Source: Syntrophaceae bacterium (GTDB lineage: Bacteria > Desulfobacterota > Syntrophia > Syntrophales > UBA2185). From it: a DNA stretch of 37,423 nucleotides. Positions 24,909 to 36,960 of this stretch are shown here, piece after piece (position 1 is the first letter of the stretch; each line of letters opens with the position of its first letter). The stretch lies in the NCBI GenBank assembly GCA_003142635.1, contig PLMX01000239.1, forward strand, positions 55,298 to 92,720. The letters run 5' to 3'. The position numbers and the translations under genes were made by a program. The notes under the pieces are model-generated. The model ran no database searches, was not told the DNA's origin, and saw nothing but the letters and a program-made list of their open reading frames with translations.

Positions 24909-25970
24909 TTGAATATCAATAATCTGATGGTCACAGGCGGCTGCGGGTTTATCGGCACTAACTTCATCCATTATGTGCTGAAGGAAACGGGGTTCGCAGG
25001 CAGAATAATTAATGTCGACAAGCTGACCTATGCAGGGAATCCTGAAAACCTGAAAGGCATAGGCGAACGATTTGGCAACAGGTACGTCTTTCAGAAGATG
25101 GATATCTGTGACGCCGGTGGCATGGGGAAAATCTTCAGTGACTACAATATTGATGCAGTATGTCATTTCGCAGCGGAGTCTCATGTCGACCGGTCGATAA
25201 AGAGGCCGGAGAGCTTCATCTACACAAATATTATCGGAACTTTCAACCTCCTTGAGCTTGCCAGGGCAAGGGCGGATAAATTTGTCCTCTTTCATCACGT
25301 GAGTACTGATGAGGTCTTTGGCAGTCTCGGGGATGCAGGATATTTTACAGAGGAGACCCCGTACCGGCCTAACAGTCCCTATTCAGCCTCCAAAGCGGCC
25401 TCGGATCACCTGGTCCGCGCCTATCATGAAACCTACGGCCTCCCCGTTGTCATTAGCAATTGTTCCAACAATTATGGCCCTTACCAGTTTCCGGAAAAGC
25501 TGATCCCTCTGATGATCTTAAATGCTGTTGAGGGCAAGCCTCTGCCCGTCTATGGAGATGGCCGTAATGTCCGTGACTGGCTGTATGTCAAAGATCATTG
25601 TGAGGCCATCTGGACGATCATGCAATCCGGGGAAAGGGGAGGGACGTTTAATATAGGCGGCAATTCAGAGATGGAAAACATCGTCATTGTGGAGATGATC
25701 TGCGATATTCTCGATGAGGTTCTTCCTTCCCCTGCCGGGATATCGAGGAGAAAACTGATCACTTTTGTGAAGGACAGACCGGGGCACGACCGCAGGTACG
25801 CCATTGACTTTAGCAAGCTGCAAAAGCAGCTTGGCTGGGCCCCGCGGGAATCTTTCGCCTCGGGCATCAGGAAAACGATAACCTGGTACCTCGATAATAA
25901 AGCATGGATTGAGAATATAAGGAGCGGCGAATACCAGATGTGGATTGACGAGCATTACGGAGAAGATTGA
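24909..25970 (+). CDS. rfbB: dTDP-glucose 4,6-dehydratase
   Basis: A 353-aa extended short-chain dehydrogenase. The NAD motif is GGCGFIG (10-16); catalytic elements are STDEVFG (Thr133, Asp134, Glu135) and YSASK with Tyr158 and Lys162; the substrate-binding NNYGPYQFPEKLIPL and GDGRNVRDWLYV are as in RmlB. It makes dTDP-4-keto-6-deoxyglucose for surface glycans. TTG 24909 is taken as start because AGGGGG ends 4 nt upstream; ATG 24927 would cut into strand 1. No rmlA, rmlC or rmlD is nearby, so the product's fate is unknown. Confidence 0.94.
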   Translation: MNINNLMVTGGCGFIGTNFIHYVLKETGFAGRIINVDKLTYAGNPENLKGIGERFGNRYVFQKMDICDAGGMGKIFSDYNIDAVCHFAAESHVDRSIKRPESFIYTNIIGTFNLLELARARADKFVLFHHVSTDEVFGSLGDAGYFTEETPYRPNSPYSASKAASDHLVRAYHETYGLPVVISNCSNNYGPYQFPEKLIPLMILNAVEGKPLPVYGDGRNVRDWLYVKDHCEAIWTIMQSGERGGTFNIGGNSEMENIVIVEMICDILDEVLPSPAGISRRKLITFVKDRPGHDRRYAIDFSKLQKQLGWAPRESFASGIRKTITWYLDNKAWIENIRSGEYQMWIDEHYGED

Positions 25971-27140: not shown

Positions 27141-28274
27141 TTACTGGTCAGCCTCAATCGAACAAAGAAGTTTTAATTTTTGCTTCGCTAAGTCAACTCC
27201 CAGACCCGAATTTAGAGATGTGTCTTTGCCGCTGCTTCGCTTCCGGAAGTCCTCTTCCTTTGAATCTTCAAAAAGCAGATATGAGAATCCTTCGAAACAA
27301 AAGAGGTTTCGGGTGGTCATTGCGAAATATCTGCCTGCCTTGTCTAAAATATCTGTCTCTCCTACATGTGCTCCCACTTGGCAGGGTATATTTTTGGACT
27401 CTGCGAAATCTCTGATCTCTTTGGATTTCAACAGACCTCCGCACTTGGAGATTTTTATATTTATGATGTCGCAGGCCTTTGCTTCAATTAATTTCTTCGC
27501 ATCTGATAGGTTGCACAAAGATTCATCGACGATAACGGGTATACCCGTTCTTCTTCTGATCTCCTGCAATCCTTCGATATCACCTGCTGCTACCGGTTGT
27601 TCAACTCCGGAAATATTGAATCTCTTCAACCCCTCAATGTGTGAGAGCGCCTGCTCTACGGACCACTTACCATTGGCTTCAATACGAATTTTAACGCGAT
27701 CTCCAAATAAAGACCTGATCAAATGTACCCTCTTTATATTGTCGCTTTCTCCTTCGCTGAGTAATACTTTTACTGATTCATACTCGAGCAATTTATATTT
27801 ATAGTAAAACTCCTTGATTTTCGCCAAAGGGAGAAGGGGGATTGAAAGAGACCATGATATGCTCTGTTTCACAATTGGATACAAGAATTCATGAAGAACT
27901 TTTCCCTGAGATTTTCCGAAGGCATCCAACAGTGCAACATCTATTGCCCCAAGGGCTGAGTTATAAGCTGTGATATTCTTATAGAAACACTCTTCTTCCA
28001 GCGCGTGTAGGATACCTTCTATATCCTTAACTGAATTGACCTCTGTATCAAAAAGAATTTTTGCAAAATAATGTTGAATGATTTGAACAACTGTTGCTGA
28101 AGATTCGCCGGTTACGTATATTCTTGGAGCACTTTCGCCACACCCTGAAATGCCGTTGTTGAATTTTAGTATTACTATTATGGATTCTGACTGATGTCTG
28201 ATCGCATGTGAAGAATGAAAGCGAAATTTGAAAGGTGAATCGCATCTTGAAAGTATGATCTTGGTCACTTTCAT
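27141..28274 (-). CDS. Enolase-superfamily enzyme, dipeptide epimerase-like
   Basis: A 377-aa protein of the mandelate racemase/muconate lactonising group. Catalytic set by eye: Lys169 in SVKV (second Lys of the usual KxK; the first is Ser), metal ligands Glu199 in RIEANG (Asp in most relatives), Glu225 in VEQPV and Asp250 in VDES, and Lys274 in NIKISKCGG on the opposite face. This matches L-Ala-D/L-Glu epimerase types, so an amino acid or dipeptide substrate is plausible; o-succinylbenzoate synthase is an alternative. It lies 9 nt after the PP-loop gene, so they form a two-gene operon. The base composition is visibly richer in A/T than in the CoA and liv operons. Confidence 0.83.
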   Translation of the reverse strand: MKVTKIILSRCDSPFKFRFHSSHAIRHQSESIIVILKFNNGISGCGESAPRIYVTGESSATVVQIIQHYFAKILFDTEVNSVKDIEGILHALEEECFYKNITAYNSALGAIDVALLDAFGKSQGKVLHEFLYPIVKQSISWSLSIPLLPLAKIKEFYYKYKLLEYESVKVLLSEGESDNIKRVHLIRSLFGDRVKIRIEANGKWSVEQALSHIEGLKRFNISGVEQPVAAGDIEGLQEIRRRTGIPVIVDESLCNLSDAKKLIEAKACDIINIKISKCGGLLKSKEIRDFAESKNIPCQVGAHVGETDILDKAGRYFAMTTRNLFCFEGFSYLLFEDSKEEDFRKRSSGKDTSLNSGLGVDLAKQKLKLLCSIEADQ

Positions 28275-28283
28275 TTGTGAAAG

Positions 28284-29357
28284 TTACCTTGACCACTCGG
28301 CCTTTTCATCAACATCATCTCTGGATAATCCTAATTCTTCTAAGAAGGAGTCATAAATATTCGGTTCTTCGGTCTGCTCAAAGGACATCATTTCTAATGC
28401 CTCTTCACGAGTCATCATACCTTCTCGGATCATCACGCTGTTCTTGATTGTTTCTTGGGTTAACCCGTATCTTTTAAATTTAAAAAATTCTTTTATCGGG
28501 AAAACTGAACAATCAAAGTGGCTGTCATGAGTATTTGGCGGCTGCTTCCATCCTACAGCATCTTTCAAAAGTTGAGGCATCTTTCTGACATTCCATCTGA
28601 TGTAGTCCGGCAATTGTATAAAGTTCATAACATGATCACCAAATTCTTTGCGTTCCTTTGAGTCAATATGTGCCTGCCTGGGGTCGTTCAGACGCATATA
28701 ACCGCGAACCACCTTTTCTTCCATAAATGGGTTTGCAATCAGTTCTTCAAACAACTCCGGGCTTAAATGCTTAAAAAAGTAGGGCATGGATGTGACTGAA
28801 ACACCCGGCTGGTACTCGTATTTTTTGGACCATCCTCCTACCGCCAGAGGTGAATATCCTAAGGATAATCTTTGATTCCATACGAAACTTGCAATAAGCA
28901 GATAACCCATATTATTGCAAACCGAGCAGAATTCTCCCCGCTTCCGTAAAAAATGAGCATACAATTTTTTGAGAAATGATTTGTTGGGTTTGATTGTGAC
29001 CAAATCAATTTCTAACTTGTCGACCAGAGCGTCTAAATTTCTAATTGCATATTCGGATCGGTATCCATTATCAAAATTGACTCCCAACATCTTCAGACCA
29101 TACTCCTGACGCAGGTAATAGGCAACATAGCTGCTGTCTTTACCTCCGCTTAAACCAACCACGACATCGTACTTCCCTTTTCCTTTGTGGGATTGGATGA
29201 TTTTATCAAGTTTAGTCTTCAGATCCTTCTCAGACAGCTTGTTTTCTTCGACCGGTAACAAACAATAACTGCAGACGCCTTGCTCATTGAACTGAATATC
29301 GGGGTAGGTGGCAGGAAGAACGCATTTTTTACATCTGGTGACTATTTTTGACATCAT
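28284..29357 (-). CDS. PP-loop ATP pyrophosphatase, N-acetyl sugar amidotransferase-like
   Basis: A 357-aa protein with an N-terminal zinc-ribbon-like set Cys9, Cys12, Cys29, Cys32 (CKKC, CSYC), then a PP-loop SGGKDSS at 70-76 that adenylates a substrate carbonyl, and CSVCNNMGY about 75 residues later. This is the architecture of WbpG/LegG-type sugar amidotransferases. The HisH-like glutaminase and HisF-like synthase partners of that family are not present in this window, and the expected WGEN-type motif is not evident, so the acceptor and the nitrogen or sulfur donor are open. It is the first gene of a pair with the enolase-family gene. Confidence 0.8.
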   Translation of the reverse strand: MMSKIVTRCKKCVLPATYPDIQFNEQGVCSYCLLPVEENKLSEKDLKTKLDKIIQSHKGKGKYDVVVGLSGGKDSSYVAYYLRQEYGLKMLGVNFDNGYRSEYAIRNLDALVDKLEIDLVTIKPNKSFLKKLYAHFLRKRGEFCSVCNNMGYLLIASFVWNQRLSLGYSPLAVGGWSKKYEYQPGVSVTSMPYFFKHLSPELFEELIANPFMEEKVVRGYMRLNDPRQAHIDSKERKEFGDHVMNFIQLPDYIRWNVRKMPQLLKDAVGWKQPPNTHDSHFDCSVFPIKEFFKFKRYGLTQETIKNSVMIREGMMTREEALEMMSFEQTEEPNIYDSFLEELGLSRDDVDEKAEWSR

Positions 29358-29494: not shown

Positions 29495-32368
29495 CTATCT
29501 TTTCGCATCCAAAACATCCCTCACCTTTTGCGAAAGGGTATTTACACTGTACGGTTTTTGAATGAAGCCATAGCAACCCTCTTCCATCATCCTCGTTGAA
29601 CGTGCGTCTGCGCTGTATCCGCTGGAAAGGATCACTTTGATGCCGGGATCGATGCACTTTAGAGCATTGAATGTTTCGCCTCCATCCATCTCCGGCATGA
29701 TCATGTCCAGGATGACCATGTCGATCTCATGCTGCTTTTCTTTGTATATCTCTATAGCTTCCCGACCGCTCCTCGCTACAGAAACCTTGTACCCCAGAAC
29801 CTCCAGGATTTCGCTGCCTACATCAATGATCACCTCTTCGTCGTCCACAAGAAGGATTGTACCCTCACCCCTCGCGATATCCGTGGAGACCTTCTCTTCT
29901 TTGACAAGCTCTTTCTCTGAAGCAGGAAGATAGATCGTAAAAGTCGCCCCGTGGCCCTTTTCACTGTATACATCTATTATACCGTTGTGCCCTTTGACAA
30001 TACCGTAAACAGAAGCAAGACCGAGACCCGTGCCCCTCCCCATCTCCTTGGTCGTGAAAAAAGGCTCAAATATTCTGTCCCGCGTCTGTTCATCCATGCC
30101 GATACCCGTATCGGTCACAGCAACACGCACATACCTCCCGGGGTTCACACCATACTGTCTGGCAGACTCCTCGTCAAGAAAGACGTTGGCCGTCTCCAGG
30201 TACAAATCGCCACCGCCAGGCATGGCCTGCCAGGCATTGACATAAATATTCAAGAGCAGCTGCTCTATCTGCCCGCGATCAACCTCCACTGCCCAGATAT
30301 TGTCCTTATAGTTGCGGTGAATAGTGATTTCCTTTTTCGTCCTCCCGAACATGGATGACGTCTTATTGATGATTTCGTTCATGTCGGTTACACTGACTTC
30401 ATATTTGCCGCCACGGGCAAAGCCCAATAGCTGCTTGGTCAGCTCCGCACCGCTTCTCACCTGGTCTTCAATTCCCTTTAGCTTATCATAAAGAGGATGG
30501 GTGATATTCATATCGAGAAACATTAGAGAGGCGTACCCCTGTATGCCCGTAAGGAGATTGTTGAAGTCATGGGCGATGCCTCCGGCAAGGGTTCCTACGG
30601 CTTCCATCTTCTGGGCATGGAGCAGCTGTGATTCAAGCTGCTTCTGTTCGGAGATGTCTCTGAAGATTCCGACGATACCAGTCACATTTCCTTTCAAATC
30701 AAGGTTTGGGGCTCCACTTAGATTAAATACTCTTTCTGAGCCATCTTTGTGCAGAATCGTGCCGACCTTGTCCCTTAGAATAAGTTTTCCATCCCTTACC
30801 TGTTCAAAAAGGAGGAGGTACTCTCTGGCGTCCTTCTTTGTCATGAAGTCGACAAAATTTCGCCCTATTACCTCGTCCGGGCGATGTCCCAGAATTTTCT
30901 CCCAGACGGGATTTATATAAGTAAATGAACCATTAAAATCAAGAGTGTAAATAATGTCCGGGGCATTCTCACTTAAAGAGCGGAACCGCTCTTCACTTTC
31001 GAGTACTTTTTGATAGGATGTTGCATTATTCATACTTATCGCGATCTGAGTCGCTATCCCCATGAGAAGGCTAACATCACTCTGCCTAAGATGCCTCTTT
31101 GATATGATGTTATCAACCAGCAAGACCCCTAAGGACTCGTTTTCGAAAACAATAGGAACGCATATGAATGCATTTGCTCCCATCATCCGGGCAAACTGCT
31201 GACTCCTTTTTGAGAGGTTCTCCTCTATCTTAGATATGTCATCGATCAGGATCGGTTTCTGGAGGCGAAAAGCTTCCACGGCGGGTCTCTTGGAAGGTGG
31301 CCCGTCAAGGTGAAATTCCACACTTGTGAGATATTCCTCATGTTCAGGGTTGTAACCGAAACCCACCGTATAAATCAGATGTGTCCTCTCCTCGTTAGCA
31401 AGCATGATCAGGCCACGATCGAAGTCCAGTCGTTTCTCCATGACTTCCATAACCAACTTGAGAAGCTTATCGCTATCCATGATCATCGCGGTTGCCTGGC
31501 CAATCTCCTGAATGAGGAGGGCATTGTTGTAACGAATATTGATCTCATCTAAAAGGGTATCAGCTAAATCACCTTGGTTTTTAAGGTTTACAGCAAGCTC
31601 CCTTTTTTCGACATGCTCAGAGTAAAAAATGAAAATCAATACAAGAAATACATAAAGCAAAACAGGAACTGCCCATAACCACTCGGTGTCGTGGAGAATA
31701 AAGAATAAGGCTGGACAGACCACAAAAGCCGAAAGTGCAACGTAATTGCGGATTGTCTTCCATAGTAATGAAGGGGTTTTCTTCCAGCTTATTATGTAGC
31801 GGCAACTATTTCCTCCTCTATGTATGCAGGTCGGATGTTCGATACTTGCGAATTTGGCTGTGAATAATTTGGCAATCGATTCGAACGTTCCTATCCGATT
31901 CTCGCATTGGTACTGTTTTTCTTCAACACCCGGATTTGGTGTGGCAACAACTTCAACCTTGTTAGAACCTAGACTTCTTGTATGAATCGTGCAATGGCGG
32001 CTAAATATGTGGTGGAGTTTCCCGAGGACTGAGTATGCAACCGCAGGTGTAATAAATCCCAGTGCGTATTGTGACACGGCGCCAGCGGCTTTCGAAAATG
32101 GTACATGACGACCGACATTTTTGGGAATGTCAGGGTCTTTTGTTTGTTGGGTCATGCCTTCGTGGAAAAGGTCCACTTGCCTCTGGCTGAACCAGTGCCC
32201 CCCATCTTCGAGCTGGTAGGTTGTAATTCCGGCGTAATCGAGAAGAGTGTTTATATTGACTTCGGGCTCGTGCTCTTTAAGATATTCGACATAATTCTTG
32301 ATAAGTCTACTGTTGTATAGAGGTATGTCTTTCATTCTAATATTTTGGTGTCTATTTTTATTACTCAT
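29495..32368 (-). CDS. Hybrid sensor histidine kinase (V4R-like, 2 TM, GAF, PAS, HisKA, HATPase, REC)
   Basis: A 957-aa multidomain kinase. Residues 1-195 are a soluble V4R-like sensor ending in Cys181 and Cys189 ([13 protein letters not shown]). Two helices lie at about 207-226 and 231-250, then GAF about 285-450, PAS about 462-575 ([17 protein letters not shown]), HisKA with His600 in [11 protein letters not shown], a HATPase domain ([23 protein letters not shown]) and a receiver with Asp888 in [12 protein letters not shown]. The signal passes from His600 to Asp888, or on to a separate partner such as the stand-alone receiver at 11671. The ATG overlaps the end of the PilZ gene by 8 nt, so the two are translationally coupled. 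Confidence 0.92.
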
Positions 32369-34451
32369 ATCTCATTCTAAAATGGCGCCGCACGTACTCC
32401 AGGAATTTATTGGAATGGCGCATATATGTGATCCACAGTTGATATCTCTTTTCGATCGGGATATGCATAACATCGGAATAAGTAGATGGATAAATTAAAA
32501 GAGGAATAGTGTCAGATTGGTAAACCCCTGTAAGTTGTGCTACGGCTGCGTAAAGCACTTCCCGTGGTAGACTTTCCGCGTCGATCACCAGCACTGTAAT
32601 GCCGTTTAACACCTCCGATAAATTCACTCCCACATCAGACTGATTGACAATCAATACAGATTTCAGACAACCGCTGTTGACGAGCGAGTAGACGGCCCAC
32701 TTTCTTGTGAAACCGAGGCGTTGGGATACCTTTTCCAGTGAGTCCTCCGTAAGGTCCCTTTTCCCTAAATTTAGCACGTCGAACAATAACCCTCCTGAGG
32801 AATGTTTCAAGAATTGTTCGAGCTGCCATAATTCGGAATTGGTGCTTTCGTGTAATGACCAGCCCCGTGGCAGTTGGCTCTCGGGTACTCCGACAGGAAA
32901 TGTCATGTAAGAAAAGAGGTCAAGCGAACAGATACGGGGATTATTCAACTCCCTCGCGAAGCCCCCGAAGACGCGGTCGGGAAATTTGTTCTCTGGACGG
33001 AAGAAGCACATTACGTAGTCCATATTTGCGGAAGGGAGATGGTACATGCCGTACAAAAAAAGTATCATATGTTTCAGAATTTGAAATCCCGGCAGTTTAT
33101 TGTGCATCGGCCTCGCCGCATGGTGGTGTATCAACCAAGCGTGCTCGTAGGCCCTGAGCATGGACATATGGCCATAAATGCGACCATTTTCCTCGTATGT
33201 AAAGTGCATGGCGATTTCAGGGTTCTCCTGATAGAGCTTTCTGTAGGTATTCTTGAAATCTTCCCGCCGGTCATGGAGTAGCTTATACTTCTTGGGGTAT
33301 ATGAAACCGGTATCGAAAAAGAATTCCCAGAGGGCATCCATATCCACTTCCGTGGATATGAAGGAATGAGGGTCCATATTTAGAGTGATTATCCTGTTCA
33401 AACGGCTGTAGCTGTGGACGTCCATATCCAGGATGGCAACACCGCAGCAGATTTTATTTTCCTCCTGCTTCTTGCGGTAGATTACCTGGGCAGTACAGTT
33501 CATTTTCAACTCCCCGGCGTAGATTATTGACAACCCATGTATAATCATTCCGGGTAACAATATGCCGTCTATTGCATCGTCATACAAAGAAAAACCTGTA
33601 ATGGAGATATCTGTGATTTCTCGCTGGATTTTTCTTCCAAAAAATGGATGCTCAAAGACGGCCATCGGGGAAGGGGATATCCGGCGTCGCGGATGGCGAA
33701 CCGTTCTTGTCTGGAAGCGCTTGATCTGTTCATTCAGGGGAGCAAGAACGATTTCCCAGTCGTGAATTTCATGCTTTTCTCTGAGACAGCGGCAGTTTCC
33801 GGAAAAAAGCATTTTTCCATTGCTTGTTAATCTGATGGTAACCGTGCCATCGGGATTGAACTCGTGATAAGATGAGGGCATTTCAGGGCTTACCTTTATG
33901 CGGAAAGACTGCGGGCTGAAATCTATAAGGCTGCCTCTGGCCAAAAAACCGCTCTGCGTCAACTCCGCGGTGACATCCCGGCAGGGAAAGCGGTTTGTTA
34001 CTCGCTTGCTTATAAGGTAGCTCTCCTCTGGCAGCAGTACCTTGAATCCCGCATTGTCTATGCCCAGAAGTTTTGCAGGAATAAGGATGATGGACTGCTG
34101 ATCCATTACTATGAGGTAACTGAAGTGAAAATTTTCGAGGCCGAAACTCATATTACTCTTATCCCAGGAACAGGCTAATTCATCTCCTTCGATAGTCTCC
34201 GGAATTGCCTTTACGAGAATAGCTTCGTCATACCTGGGGTAACGCAATAGGGCGCAGATAGAATCGCCCATGAAATGGATCCGGTTTAGAGTGTTTATCA
34301 GATTCTCTTTCTTGATGCGGCTGCCGGCATCGATGGCGTTAATGAGATCATCGTGCTGAAAAAACCACAGCGGCAGGAATGGTTCCTCTGGAGCTTTCCT
34401 GACTTTCCCGATGTCAATGAGAATGGGTTGCCTGGTTTTTTTGTCTTCCAT
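32361..34451 (-). CDS. PilZ-domain protein with degenerate first PilZ and GNAT-like region
   Basis: A 696-aa soluble protein. Residues about 145-245 look like a degenerate PilZ or YcgR-N unit (RVTNR at 150-154, DFS at 177-179 but no final Gly). About 250-360 is a full PilZ domain with RHPRR (252-256) and DISITG (281-286), the RxxxR and DxSxxG c-di-GMP-binding signature. About 370-560 shows a pattern like an acyltransferase (GNAT) fold (GHMSMLRAYEHAWLIHHHAA), called with low confidence. It probably responds to c-di-GMP and is coupled to the hybrid kinase by an 8-nt overlap. No enzymatic activity can be assigned. Confidence 0.8.
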   Translation of the reverse strand: MEDKKTRQPILIDIGKVRKAPEEPFLPLWFFQHDDLINAIDAGSRIKKENLINTLNRIHFMGDSICALLRYPRYDEAILVKAIPETIEGDELACSWDKSNMSFGLENFHFSYLIVMDQQSIILIPAKLLGIDNAGFKVLLPEESYLISKRVTNRFPCRDVTAELTQSGFLARGSLIDFSPQSFRIKVSPEMPSSYHEFNPDGTVTIRLTSNGKMLFSGNCRCLREKHEIHDWEIVLAPLNEQIKRFQTRTVRHPRRRISPSPMAVFEHPFFGRKIQREITDISITGFSLYDDAIDGILLPGMIIHGLSIIYAGELKMNCTAQVIYRKKQEENKICCGVAILDMDVHSYSRLNRIITLNMDPHSFISTEVDMDALWEFFFDTGFIYPKKYKLLHDRREDFKNTYRKLYQENPEIAMHFTYEENGRIYGHMSMLRAYEHAWLIHHHAARPMHNKLPGFQILKHMILFLYGMYHLPSANMDYVMCFFRPENKFPDRVFGGFARELNNPRICSLDLFSYMTFPVGVPESQLPRGWSLHESTNSELWQLEQFLKHSSGGLLFDVLNLGKRDLTEDSLEKVSQRLGFTRKWAVYSLVNSGCLKSVLIVNQSDVGVNLSEVLNGITVLVIDAESLPREVLYAAVAQLTGVYQSDTIPLLIYPSTYSDVMHIPIEKRYQLWITYMRHSNKFLEYVRRHFRMRYE

Positions 34452-34813
34452 TTATCTAAGGCCTACAATTTATTCGACATGACGAATTTGTGGCAGTCTC
34501 ACCATGTTGTCGAGAAATGCTCAGGATGCCGCTCTTCTTATTAAAAAGCGTATTCGGCCATAAGGATTTGAAAGCAAATGCAACACAGAAGGCAGAAATG
34601 CGATTTCCGCAAGACAGTTTAAGAAGATGCCGGATCAGAAAAGACCACTTCATGTCAATCCGGAAGCGCTGTCCTTCCTCGAGACAAAAATTAGCATCAA
34701 TTTATATACTAAATGATGATGCCATGTCAAACTTTATATGAGCAAATACAGCGGCGATTGAACTGCGTGAGGATTCTTTCAACGGTATGGGTTCGTTCGG
34801 ATATTTGTCATTA
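34452..34813. other. 362-nt intergenic region between HDOD and PilZ genes
   Basis: Both neighbours are on the minus strand, so this holds the downstream end of the HDOD gene and the promoter of the PilZ-kinase unit. The short ORFs in it on either strand lack ribosome sites and recognisable motifs. The only structured element seen is an inverted repeat at 34472. Confidence 0.5.
34472..34487. promoter_or_regulatory. Inverted repeat upstream of PilZ gene
   Basis: ATTCG and CGAAT arms with a six-base spacer lie about 20 nt before the PilZ start codon. Position and symmetry fit an operator; the arms are too short to be sure. Confidence 0.25.
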
Positions 34814-35665
34814 TCAAGACAACTTCTGTTTTGGCGCTGGCGGCCTCTTAATCTCAATATAACCTCCAAGCCCGACGGCTTTGAATATCTCCTCGATCGT
34901 TGCGCCCATTGTATGCACGATCGTCCCTTCCGAATCAGGCATGGGTGATAATAATACGAGCTTGTTATCAAACCTTCTAAAGCTCAGGTCTACGATGCTG
35001 TAGGCCACAATGACGACGCCGGAAAGAGAAATAAGCTCGGTCTCAAGAGTGAGGCACGTCATAGAAATTACATCCTTAAGGAATTCCGGCAAACCAAATT
35101 TCTCCATGAATTTCATGCCCAGTTGTGATTGGTACTGAGAGATAAAATCTTCTCCTATTTGGGCTTGCTCATACTCATCTTTATACAGCGACCTGTACAG
35201 GGCAATGATGATCTTACCGATTTCGAGGAGAAGCCCCCCTATCTCCACTTTTCTTGCATCATCGTCCCTCAGTCCGAATTCTTTCGCGAGCATTCTGCCA
35301 CCAATTACGGAAGTCGCAAAACTCTTGGCGCAAATGATTCTCACCTCCTTATCCTTTGATAGGGCTGCGAAAGATAAGAATATTATAAGAACCCGGGCGA
35401 AGTCCATGCCCAGCCGGGAAACAACCTTGTAGAATGTATCAACCGTTCCCCTCTTCAGATGGCCGTAATAGGCGGAGTTGGCGATGCTGAAAAGTCTTCC
35501 CAGGATTTCATCTCCCACCTTTGACTTCAAGAGCTCAATTTCGCTCTCGTCCGCGTCGGGATCACTGAGCACGGCAAGCACATCGGGGTCGAAACCGAGG
35601 TTAACATTGTTGAGTATCTTATCTTCGATATCTGAGATTATCTGATTAACTGTTCCGGCGTCCAT
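34814..35665 (-). CDS. HDOD domain protein
   Basis: From ATG 35665 a 283-aa protein with a single HDOD domain: an early SDPDADESEIELLKSKVG segment, LFSIANSAYYG, VSRLGMDFARVLIIF and IGGLLLEIGKIIIALY follow the family pattern. HDOD proteins are non-catalytic HD relatives used as signalling scaffolds, often with c-di-GMP or chemotaxis systems. The frame is open to a GTG at 35818 (334 aa), but that start has no ribosome site, whereas AGGAGG lies 12 nt before ATG 35665; residues ahead of it look non-domain. The true start is uncertain. Confidence 0.85.
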   Translation of the reverse strand: MDAGTVNQIISDIEDKILNNVNLGFDPDVLAVLSDPDADESEIELLKSKVGDEILGRLFSIANSAYYGHLKRGTVDTFYKVVSRLGMDFARVLIIFLSFAALSKDKEVRIICAKSFATSVIGGRMLAKEFGLRDDDARKVEIGGLLLEIGKIIIALYRSLYKDEYEQAQIGEDFISQYQSQLGMKFMEKFGLPEFLKDVISMTCLTLETELISLSGVVIVAYSIVDLSFRRFDNKLVLLSPMPDSEGTIVHTMGATIEEIFKAVGLGGYIEIKRPPAPKQKLS

Positions 35666-35908
35666 TTCCTGACTGTTCCTCCTGTCAGTGAGACCGAATG
35701 CTGACGAGCAAGCTGAATAATTTAGATATGCGTTTCGCTCATTTCTTGCAGCACGTTCTTTGATGAACTGTGACGGGATATTCATCCTGCATAGCTGCTG
35801 AAGAGACGTCTCCTCCACGTCGCGTGGTGAGTTGATGTTCTATGTAGATACCACAAATATGAAAAAAATTACAGAGTATAAATGTTATTACTTGCATGAA
35901 GGACGTGG

Positions 35909-36153: not shown

Positions 36154-36960
36154 ATGGGCCTGGTTTATGAGAAGGATGGGCACATCGCAAAAGTAGGTCT
36201 GAATCGTCCCGAGGAAAGGAACGCCCTTGATCCCGAAATCCTGATGGATTTGCATCGTGCGTGGACGGATGTCAATGCGGACGAGATGGTGCGCGTCGTT
36301 ATCCTCTATTCATGCCTGCCGGATATCTTTTGCGCAGGCATGGATCTGAAGACGGCCATACCTGTGCTCACAAGGGCCAGGGAGCCCGGGAGCGAATCCG
36401 AGAGATGGCTGGTGCAGGTGGGACCGCATGTCGGGGAAGCTATGCTGAAGCCGAACATCGTGAAGAAGCCCGTAATTGCCGCTATCAATGGTTACTGTCT
36501 GACAGGAGGCTTTGAGATGGTCATGGGCGCCGATCTCCGCATCGCCTCGGAAAATGCAGTTTTTCAGATGAGAGAAGCGAGTCTCGGGATCATGCCGGTC
36601 GGCGGGTCGAACGTTTATCTGCCCCGGCAACTGTCACCCTGCCGGGCCTTTGAAATCCTTCTGACCGCTGGCAACTTCCGCGCGAGAACTCTCCATGAAT
36701 GGGGTTTCCTCAATCACGTGGTGCCACAGGAAGACCTGATGAAGAAAACTATGGAATTAGGGGACAGGATTGCGAGTAACGGTCCCCTTGCCGTTCAAGG
36801 CATAATTAGATGCTTCCGGGAATCGCAGGATATGTCATATAGCGATGCCTTCAAAAGGGAACTGGAGATCGGTATGCCCGTATTCGGGAGTAAGGACGCA
36901 CGTGAAGGCATTCTTGCCCAGAAGGAAAAGCGGAAACCTAATTTTCCGGGCCGGTTTTAG
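36154..36960 (+). CDS. Enoyl-CoA hydratase/isomerase (crotonase family)
   Basis: A 268-aa crotonase-fold protein. The oxyanion hole is formed by FCAGMDLK (Ala61-Gly62) and CLTGGFEMVMGADLRIAS (Gly118-Gly119). Both general acid/base glutamates are in place by alignment to rat hydratase: Glu121 in GGFE and Glu141 in QMREASLG. It would hydrate 2-enoyl-CoA to 3-hydroxyacyl-CoA, complementing the dehydrogenase/thiolase operon at 1574-8049, although the two loci are far apart. AAAGGAG is well placed before ATG 36154. Confidence 0.9.
   Translation: MGLVYEKDGHIAKVGLNRPEERNALDPEILMDLHRAWTDVNADEMVRVVILYSCLPDIFCAGMDLKTAIPVLTRAREPGSESERWLVQVGPHVGEAMLKPNIVKKPVIAAINGYCLTGGFEMVMGADLRIASENAVFQMREASLGIMPVGGSNVYLPRQLSPCRAFEILLTAGNFRARTLHEWGFLNHVVPQEDLMKKTMELGDRIASNGPLAVQGIIRCFRESQDMSYSDAFKRELEIGMPVFGSKDAREGILAQKEKRKPNFPGRF

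Follow-up and report, generated by a model that had tools for sequence, protein, structure and literature searches.

The stretch of DNA analysed here (hereafter the window) comprises 37,423 nucleotides (nt) of contig PLMX01000239.1 from a Syntrophaceae bacterium and carries a minus-strand pair of genes that encode an enolase-superfamily enzyme (Eno-1) and a PP-loop protein. In an initial annotation, this pair was regarded as an AT-rich two-gene unit, possibly acquired by transfer, that would carry out an ATP-dependent amidation or thiolation of an amino acid- or peptide-derived substrate. The two open reading frames (ORFs) indeed lie only 9 nt apart, and their GC contents of 40.5% (enolase) and 40.7% (PP-loop) are lower than those of the adjacent sensor and PilZ genes (46%) and of the pcnB, NlpC, rfbB and methyltransferase genes on the enolase side (49-56%). 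However, the pair does not stand alone, as it forms the end of a four-gene block with the order PilZ protein, sensor kinase, PP-loop protein and enolase (Table 1). To place this block in context we used 155 genomes of the order, including the window's own genome (G000; 3.47 Mb, 260 contigs, 95% complete) and three further genomes of its genus (G001, G002 and G003).

Table 1. Features of the window. Positions count from the first nucleotide of the window; parts marked as typed belong to the locus types described in the text.
Feature	Position	Strand	Evidence or remark
Eno-1, enolase superfamily (muconate lactonizing enzyme (MLE) subgroup), 377 amino acids (aa)	27141-28274	-	Pfam MR_MLE_C 134 bits and MR_MLE_N 37 bits, both above cut-off
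Eno-1 metal ligand E199	27678-27680	-	alignment
Eno-1 metal ligand E225	27600-27602	-	alignment
Eno-1 metal ligand D250	27525-27527	-	alignment
Eno-1 beta-2 K169 (first KxK position)	27768-27770	-	kept
Eno-1 L171 (second KxK position)	27762-27764	-	lysine replaced
Eno-1 beta-6 K274	27453-27455	-	present; putative catalytic base
PP-loop (AANH) protein, WbuX/NASAT type, 357 aa	28284-29357	-	TIGR03573 191.9 bits, alignment, AlphaFold2
PP-loop SGGKDS, residues 70-75	29133-29150	-	motif
PP-loop C144	28926-28928	-	Cys triad
PP-loop C147	28917-28919	-	Cys triad
PP-loop C283	28509-28511	-	Cys triad
Membrane hybrid sensor kinase, 957 aa	29495-32368	-	V4R-like N-domain (aa 12-198), transmembrane (TM) stretch, GAF, PAS, HisKA-HATPase, REC
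V4R-like sensing domain (typed)	31775-32335	-	nt identity G000-G003 93.6%, G000-G002 69.7%, G002-G003 70.9%
PilZ-domain protein, 696 aa	32361-34451	-	PilZ 32.1 bits; 8-nt overlap with the sensor ORF
PilZ protein C-terminal part, aa 201-696 (typed)	32361-33851	-	site counts; aa 1-200 follow the flank
NlpC/P60 gene	23907-24725	opposite to enolase	Pfam
rfbB-like gene	24909-25970	+	1.2 kb from the pair
Enoyl-CoA-hydratase-like gene	36154-36960	+	far side of the PilZ gene
HDOD-domain gene	34814-35818	-	no counterpart at this position in G002 and G003

Eno-1 was found in 12 of the 155 genomes, and every one of them has next to it, or one slot gene away, a sensor composed of V4R-like N-domain, TM stretch, GAF and PAS; the contigs of G001 and G003 break off inside the sensor gene, of which only the end is present there. 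The PilZ gene is located on the same contig in 10 of these genomes (G016 has just its end, where the contig stops), and in G003 it is joined to the 5' part of the sensor gene on another contig. The PP-loop subfamily of the window (at least 57% identical) occurs in 6 of the 155 genomes and in one further named record (L055), ordinary PP-loop relatives being about 30% identical to the window protein. All six genomes are among the 12 with Eno-1, and the chance of this nesting is C(12,6)/C(155,6) = 5e-8 if shared ancestry is ignored. Six of the seven subfamily loci have an enolase relative right beside the PP-loop gene, which is more than chance; in the seventh (G007) the two genes are on different contigs. 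The pairing noticed in the initial annotation thus recurs in other genomes, though not as a unit of two genes, since the sensor and mostly the PilZ gene accompany it and the PP-loop gene is an optional part of the locus. The PilZ family as such is present in 95 of the 155 genomes, so that the PilZ-sensor pair is a wider unit. A second type of enolase (Eno-2) was found at 21 places in 20 genomes, and 20 of these places have a PilZ gene no more than about 6 kb away; the exception, G099, is a genome without a PilZ match.

Comparison of the four syntenic genomes of the window's genus, in three of which (G000, G002 and G003) the V4R-like domain can be read, revealed that the block is a mosaic. The flanking methyltransferase gene, 45 nt away, pairs G000 with G001 (95.5% nt identity) and G002 with G003 (92.7% over 354 nt), all other pairs being 86-88% identical. 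For the enolase gene, by contrast, the closest pairs are G000-G003 (89.4%) and G001-G002 (82.8%), with 72-77% for the others; G001 therefore pairs with G000 in its flank and is nearest to G002 in its enolase. Within the sensor gene, compared among G000, G002 and G003, G002-G003 is always the closest pair from the GAF domain onward (87-98%), whereas in the V4R-like domain G000 is by far closest to G003 (Table 1). We also counted the informative sites in the order G000=G003 / G002=G003 / G000=G002. These counts were 14/30/9 for the methyltransferase flank, 20/47/21 for PilZ residues 1-200, 54/77/38 for GAF-PAS, 1/19/3 for sensor residues 578-675 and 22/80/16 for the last 680 nt of the sensor gene, as opposed to 297/74/57 for PilZ residues 201-696, 144/17/10 for the V4R-like domain and 213/66/36 for the enolase; the TM and linker region gave 39/18/23. 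The enolase, the sensing domain and the C-terminal part of the PilZ protein thus form types that contradict the flank, and in G000, G002 and G003 the two typed blocks agree although about 2 kb of flank-following sensor sequence separates them. In these three genomes enzyme and sensing domain, in other words, co-vary against the kinase part and the flank, as expected of a polymorphic signal-receptor locus; in G001 the enolase fits this pattern. A further indication, the rise in sensor protein identity between G000 and G002 from 64% in the V4R-like domain through 81% in GAF/PAS to 91-92% in the kinase and receiver parts, is weak when taken alone because faster evolution is common in input domains. 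The slot beside the enolase gene differs as well: G000 and G003 have the PP-loop gene there, G001 has a gene for a B12-binding radical SAM protein (L047:11187-12611, 34% GC), and G002 has none, with a mere 73 nt separating sensor and enolase. Relatives of this radical SAM protein (30% identical) are found in two Eno-2 blocks. Parts of the block have therefore been exchanged within the genus, and it is in this sense that the earlier suggestion of acquisition by transfer stands. An origin outside the order is unsupported, and the AT-richness alone is no sign of foreign DNA because the same genes in G139 are near their flanks in GC content.

The PP-loop protein has the SGGKDS motif and an N-terminal tetra-Cys motif (C9xxC12 ... 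G27-V-C29xxC32), and it matches the signature of SGGxDS and CXXCXn[GN]XCXXC by which NASAT enzymes are defined (PMC10607449). Its best family, TIGR03573 (WbuX), was reached with a score below the cut-off of 203.2 bits. The AlphaFold2 model (predicted local distance difference test 81, predicted template modelling score 0.82) has LpNASAT (8wex) as its closest fold, with an E-value of about 1e-13, followed at about 1e-5 by NadE, TtuA (5ztb), LarE (8cnz) and NcsA (6scy). In addition, the protein contains a Cys triad, C144xxC147 and C283, that is present in all seven subfamily members and absent from LpNASAT, whose structure has been solved, in the profile alignment. The protein thus combines a NASAT scaffold with the Cys pattern of sulfur transferases. 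In an alignment of 70 WbuX-type rows (the 7 subfamily members and 63 matches from the loci, at least three genes being entered twice) the triad is nearly all-or-none, being complete in 39 rows, absent from 29 and partial in 2 (L153, which is truncated, and L143, which reads YCC), and the tetra-Cys motif is complete in 68.

The CxxC...C pattern of this triad is the one that binds a [4Fe-4S] cluster in NcsA and LarE. In MmNcsA the ligands are C142, C145 and C233, and the free fourth iron binds sulfide (PMC10067955); Thermotoga LarE uses its CXXC-C in a like manner (PMC9283937); and the Fe-S AANH enzyme CtaC from an anaerobe forms thioamides in vitro with sulfide and ATP (PMC6772006). Because of this pattern, sulfur transfer would be likelier than amidation. 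The PP-loop protein may adenylate a carbonyl or carboxylate with ATP and then swap its oxygen for sulfur held on a putative [4Fe-4S] cluster at C144, C147 and C283. Of the two activities considered in the initial annotation, thiolation fits the triad; amidation is weakened, with proteins that have the triad and proteins that lack it both found above the WbuX cut-off. Some observations nevertheless weigh against sulfur transfer. Among the 26 rows above the TIGR03573 cut-off, 5 have the triad, 19 have none and 2 are partial, so that the triad occurs also in proteins curated as amidotransferases. The other 44 rows, which do not derive from above-cut-off matches, comprise 34 with and 10 without the triad, which is thus typical of the below-cut-off kin and yet not confined to them. 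Moreover, the top fold match is an amidotransferase that lacks the triad, and triad-bearing relatives adjoin genes for asparagine synthase and for NAD-synthase-like, AMP-ligase and phosphoesterase proteins.

The five triad-bearing rows above the cut-off, together with the family, the two motifs and the fold, would be explained by an amidotransferase of the WbuX/WbpG type that forms an acetamidino group on a surface sugar from free ammonia, with the enolase as a neighbour of unrelated function, and an rfbB-like gene lies close to the pair in the window and adjoins the enolase in G132 and G139. We consider this unlikely, given the score under the family cut-off, the absence of the triad from LpNASAT and 29 of the 70 rows, and the fact that G001 and G132 possess rfbB and the enolase and have no PP-loop gene of this kind. 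Furthermore, in agreement with the initial annotation, no second HisF/HisH set was found in G000 (95% complete, with all profile matches on different contigs), where His_biosynth gave two strong matches and a third of 27.0 bits (cut-off 23.6) and a single HisH match exceeded its cut-off; no HisH/HisF-like partner was present among the window neighbours scanned with Pfam. The only other PP-loop match in G000 is part of a 517-aa ORF (E-value 4e-4). A tRNA thiolase of the TtuA/NcsA kind that happens to lie here would share the triad and the N-terminal tetra-Cys motif with NcsA. It is nonetheless very improbable, as NASAT is the closest family, the TtuA model NF049949 gave 23.4 bits against a cut-off of 450, which places the protein outside that family, 149 of the 155 genomes have no subfamily member, and the gene is tied to a variable sensory locus.

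Compared with the known systems, the window protein shares the SGGxDS PP-loop, the tetra-Cys motif and the overall fold with NASAT (LpNASAT 8WEX, WbuX, WbpG; TIGR03573), and differs from it in scoring below the cut-off, in its apparent lack of HisF/HisH partners and in its location in a sensory locus; the triad sets it apart from LpNASAT and is shared by the five above-cut-off rows. With NcsA/TtuA, LarE and CtaC (closthioamide) it has the CxxC-C and SGGxDS motifs in common, and CtaC is an example of natural-product thioamidation in an anaerobe. It is not a member of their sequence families, however, and its cluster and sulfur transfer are putative. No carrier-protein or nonribosomal peptide synthetase gene was seen among ten neighbours scanned with Pfam.

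In Eno-1 the three metal ligands, the beta-6 lysine K274 and the beta-2 lysine K169 are kept, and leucine takes the place of the second KxK lysine on beta-2 (K169-V-L171). The active-site conservation noted initially for both proteins therefore applies to SGGKDS, the metal ligands and K274, and not to this lysine. We compared 33 aligned sequences, namely 13 of Eno-1, 6 of Eno-2 and 14 relatives from the phylum taken from the best-scoring matches. The Eno-1 sequences form a single group (support 100/100) with Lys at the first and Leu or Ile at the second KxK position in 13 of 13, and with the beta-6 Lys in 12 of 12, L055 being cut off there. Eno-2 has both KxK and the beta-6 Lys (6/6), and the phylum relatives keep KxK and have Arg on beta-6 (14/14). 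Judged by these residues, Eno-1 appears to retain one catalytic base and the phylum relatives the other. The metal ligands are kept, with the beta-3 Glu in 12 of 13 Eno-1 sequences and Asp in one, and a G-x-x-x-GE stretch on beta-7 is common to all three groups where covered. H303 on beta-7 was considered as catalytic base and rejected, as G043 has Leu at this position.

Two-base epimerases need acid/base lysines on both beta-2 and beta-6, and on the established mechanism of the enolase superfamily such an activity is ruled out for Eno-1 because the second KxK lysine is missing in all 13 sequences. An ordinary L-Ala-D/L-Glu (dipeptide) epimerase of peptidoglycan recycling is accordingly hardly credible, even though the best solved relatives, which include 3q45, also include 1jpm and an NlpC/P60 gene is found in the window: this gene lies on the opposite strand, Eno-1 has FEGF where 1jpm has FDFD, and NF041118 gave 104.4 bits against a cut-off of 500. 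The peptide-derived substrate of the initial annotation found no evidence here, the enolase being without the residue that dipeptide epimerases use. The o-succinylbenzoate synthase (OSBS) reaction uses the KxK lysine that is missing in Eno-1, and none of the seven proteins scanned (3 Eno-1, 2 Eno-2 and 2 phylum relatives) reached the NCBIfam cut-off of a named enolase, be it dipeptide epimerase, OSBS or another. Eno-1 thus shares its domains, metal ligands and beta-6 lysine with the MLE subgroup (1JPM epimerase, muconate cycloisomerases), and differs from it in the Leu/Ile at the second KxK position and in the lack of an NCBIfam assignment for the three proteins scanned. The enzyme would form a Mg-stabilised enolate with K274 as its single catalytic base, and the step may be a one-face elimination, a cycloisomerisation or something similar rather than an epimerisation. 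For Eno-2, MenC in a MenC-MenH-like fusion was considered as an identity; four of the five proteins scanned with Pfam are fused to an alpha/beta-hydrolase. Such enolase-alpha/beta-hydrolase fusions, adjacent to PilZ/sensor genes or in their vicinity, can be seen in further genomes of the order at L095:5789-7879, L093:9217-11412, L098:4869-6962 and L112:1944-3992.

In the sensor, C155, C181 and C189 as well as E150 and E163 are invariant in the 10 sequences compared, and the zinc site of V4R domains consists of three Cys and one Glu (PMC10715001). It should be noted here that 'V4R' is our own label, as Pfam narrowly prefers Arabinose_bd. By alignment, the output part is a histidine kinase with receiver (HK-REC) in the window, G002, G007, G015 and G043, and an HD-GYP-like stretch, read from the alignment and not from a Pfam run, in G044, G016, G132, G139 and G131. 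One sensor N-half with two outputs (HK-REC or HD-GYP-like) is thus seen, for instance at L045:7614-9908, L050:355-2655, L070:7004-9304, L071:5033-7708 and L072:7224-9572. For the C-terminal part of the PilZ protein, Pfam (E-values up to 1), a PDB profile search and AlphaFold2 (predicted local distance difference test 41) all gave no fold; a GNAT-like fold was an impression from reading, and we make no claim for it.

The interpretation that we tentatively prefer is that the pair provides the enzymes of a sensory locus of four genes and makes or processes the ligand of the adjacent sensor. The product of the enzymes, or their substrate, would be small and probably hydrophobic or aromatic, and would be bound by the V4R-like domain of the kinase. 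The PilZ protein may be a cyclic di-GMP-responsive partner, with its C-terminal part helping to make or recognise the ligand. The locus would exist as types that differ in the tailoring enzyme encoded between sensor and enolase: a PP-loop protein, a B12-radical SAM protein or no enzyme at all. What the sequences show directly are the gene content, the linkage, the residue patterns and the mosaic typing in one genus; the cluster, the chemistry, the ligand and the signalling are inferred from them.

Its main rival is substrate sensing, in which the enolase, alone or together with the PP-loop enzyme, serves in taking up or degrading an aromatic or lipophilic compound from the environment, this compound being what the sensor detects and the types being substrate specialisations. 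This remains the main rival because V4R domains of known function bind phenols (PMC10715001), and it is a real possibility, if a less probable one. It would suit the alpha/beta-hydrolase fusions of Eno-2, the enoyl-CoA-hydratase-like gene beyond the PilZ gene in the window's family and in two genomes of another (G132 and G131), and the surroundings of related enolases elsewhere in the phylum. Besides the window's own genome, 38 genomes had a match, and 16 of the loci (L193-L208) were fetched. In 15 of these 16 a homologue of an LpxL-like acyltransferase overlaps or precedes the enolase (Pfam tested in 2), with the motif HFG[AG][VL]E in all 14 homologues aligned, and a FadL/TodX-type gene is found in 8 (Pfam tested in 1). 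DUF1611/DgcN had been guessed as partner of this phylum-wide enolase and was discarded when Pfam returned an LpxL-like acyltransferase for the two proteins tested. On the other hand, no degradation gene set recurs in all families among the neighbours compared, ATP-dependent sulfur insertion would be biosynthetic, and half of the 12 enolase genomes are without the PP-loop gene. In favour of the preferred interpretation, elsewhere in the phylum a kinase that matches the profile of the window-type sensor N-domain accompanies the enolase in 9 of the 16 loci (E-values 5e-10 to 6e-6 in a small ORF set). As 15 of the 16 genomes hold one or two copies of this N-domain (range 0-2), these nine adjacencies are hardly due to chance.

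Several further observations weigh against a ligand-making sensory locus. With respect to the sensor, the N-domain of the window fails the Pfam V4R model PF02830 (16.4 bits, cut-off 31; 12.4 and 14.0 bits for two relatives) and just passes Arabinose_bd PF12625 (27.7 bits, cut-off 27.6), and the V4R sensors of known function detect external phenols (PMC10715001). The reverse search with the N-domain of the phylum sensors gave no match in four Syntrophales-type genomes at an E-value of 1e-8, and the two sensor groups are therefore distant. With respect to linkage, G001 has no PilZ match at an E-value of 1e-40, G044 has a convergent sensor gene and its PP-loop gene outside the slot, on the far side of the enolase, and in G007 the PP-loop gene is on another contig than the enolase. 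In addition, the rfbB-like gene that adjoins the enolase in G132 and G139 recurs there in another family than that of the window. With respect to typing, the analysis is based on four genomes, and on three for the V4R-like domain, and the sensor end of G001 (680 nt) is 80-83% identical to all three others, which is not flank-like. Finally, in nine genomes of the order the partial correlation between enolase and V4R-like domain was 0.41 when GAF-PAS was controlled for (a value reached in 10 of 2000 permutations) and 0.30 when the PilZ N-terminal part was (89 of 2000), while the enolase tracked the untyped PilZ N-terminal part better (0.70). These order-wide correlations are moderately supportive and unspecific to the typed parts.

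A more far-reaching version of this interpretation, which we regard as speculative and rather improbable, is that the locus belongs to a new kind of polymorphic locus for cell-cell signalling in Syntrophales-type anaerobes. An enolase synthase with a PilZ-linked partner would make a small hydrophobic signal that is perceived by a V4R-type kinase or HD-GYP sensor, a swappable tailoring gene would set the pherotype through sulfur insertion by a [4Fe-4S] PP-loop enzyme here and through a B12-radical SAM enzyme in a sister species, and the phylum would hold an LpxL-like/FadL version. In its pattern such a locus resembles ComQXPA of Bacillus, in which the genes for processing enzyme and sensor kinase are likewise adjacent and polymorphic (PMC4408185). 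The likeness is an analogy of pattern, not of membership, as no peptide gene was seen in the window locus, the sensing domain is V4R-like and a self-made signal is hypothetical. In ComP, too, the N-terminal part varies and the kinase end is conserved. The window sensor resembles the V4R phenol sensors (MopR, DmpR/CapR, PoxR, PcrS) in its weak V4R match, and its three invariant Cys with one of the invariant Glu may correspond to their zinc site. The window N-domain differs from them in its Pfam scores and in its connection, by way of a TM stretch and GAF/PAS, to an HK-REC output, or to an HD-GYP-like one in relatives.

Among the papers listed in our literature searches, which covered few subscription journals, we found no description of the Cys triad in NASAT-like proteins or of an enolase-sensor locus of this kind. 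To our knowledge, little has been established about the signalling chemistry of syntrophic-type anaerobes. If the interpretation is true, it joins Fe-S-type sulfur insertion in NASAT-like PP-loop proteins, an enolase lineage that lacks one catalytic lysine and whose relatives lack the other, and a typed sensor locus, a combination met with in none of the listed papers. It also calls for caution in annotation, since proteins named 'N-acetyl sugar amidotransferase' can bear the Cys triad and may be sulfur transferases.

With regard to distribution, no close relative was found outside the order, the scan of genome contigs having used two short patterns that would miss members like L071. In the Syntrophales-type loci examined, profiles of the acyltransferase (E-values up to 1) and the FadL-type protein (up to 1e-3) retrieved nothing. 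Six patterns applied to viral contigs revealed no relative of the PP-loop protein, and among 18 plasmid records the best full-length match was 27% identical. The matches to defence systems were a weak one to SspD (21.9 bits), which covers the PP-loop region, and two marginal ones in the kinase, and promoter- and terminator-like sites were about as frequent as expected by chance. G000 contains a second PilZ/sensor pair (L105, G000:C162; 3649 bp), with no enolase visible on that short contig. Confusion with this copy was ruled out, as its sensor N-terminal part is 55% identical and the G003 contig is colinear with the window. The loci with the recurring rfbB-like gene are L070 and L071, and those with the enoyl-CoA-hydratase-like gene are L070 and L072. 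In G007 the PP-loop gene (L043, G007:C114) lies beside PALP, Cys/Met-metabolism, MetW-like and hexapeptide-transferase genes. At the place of the HDOD gene, the alignment with G002 and G003 skips from window position 34740 to about 36000, which reflects either an insertion in the window or a loss in these two genomes.

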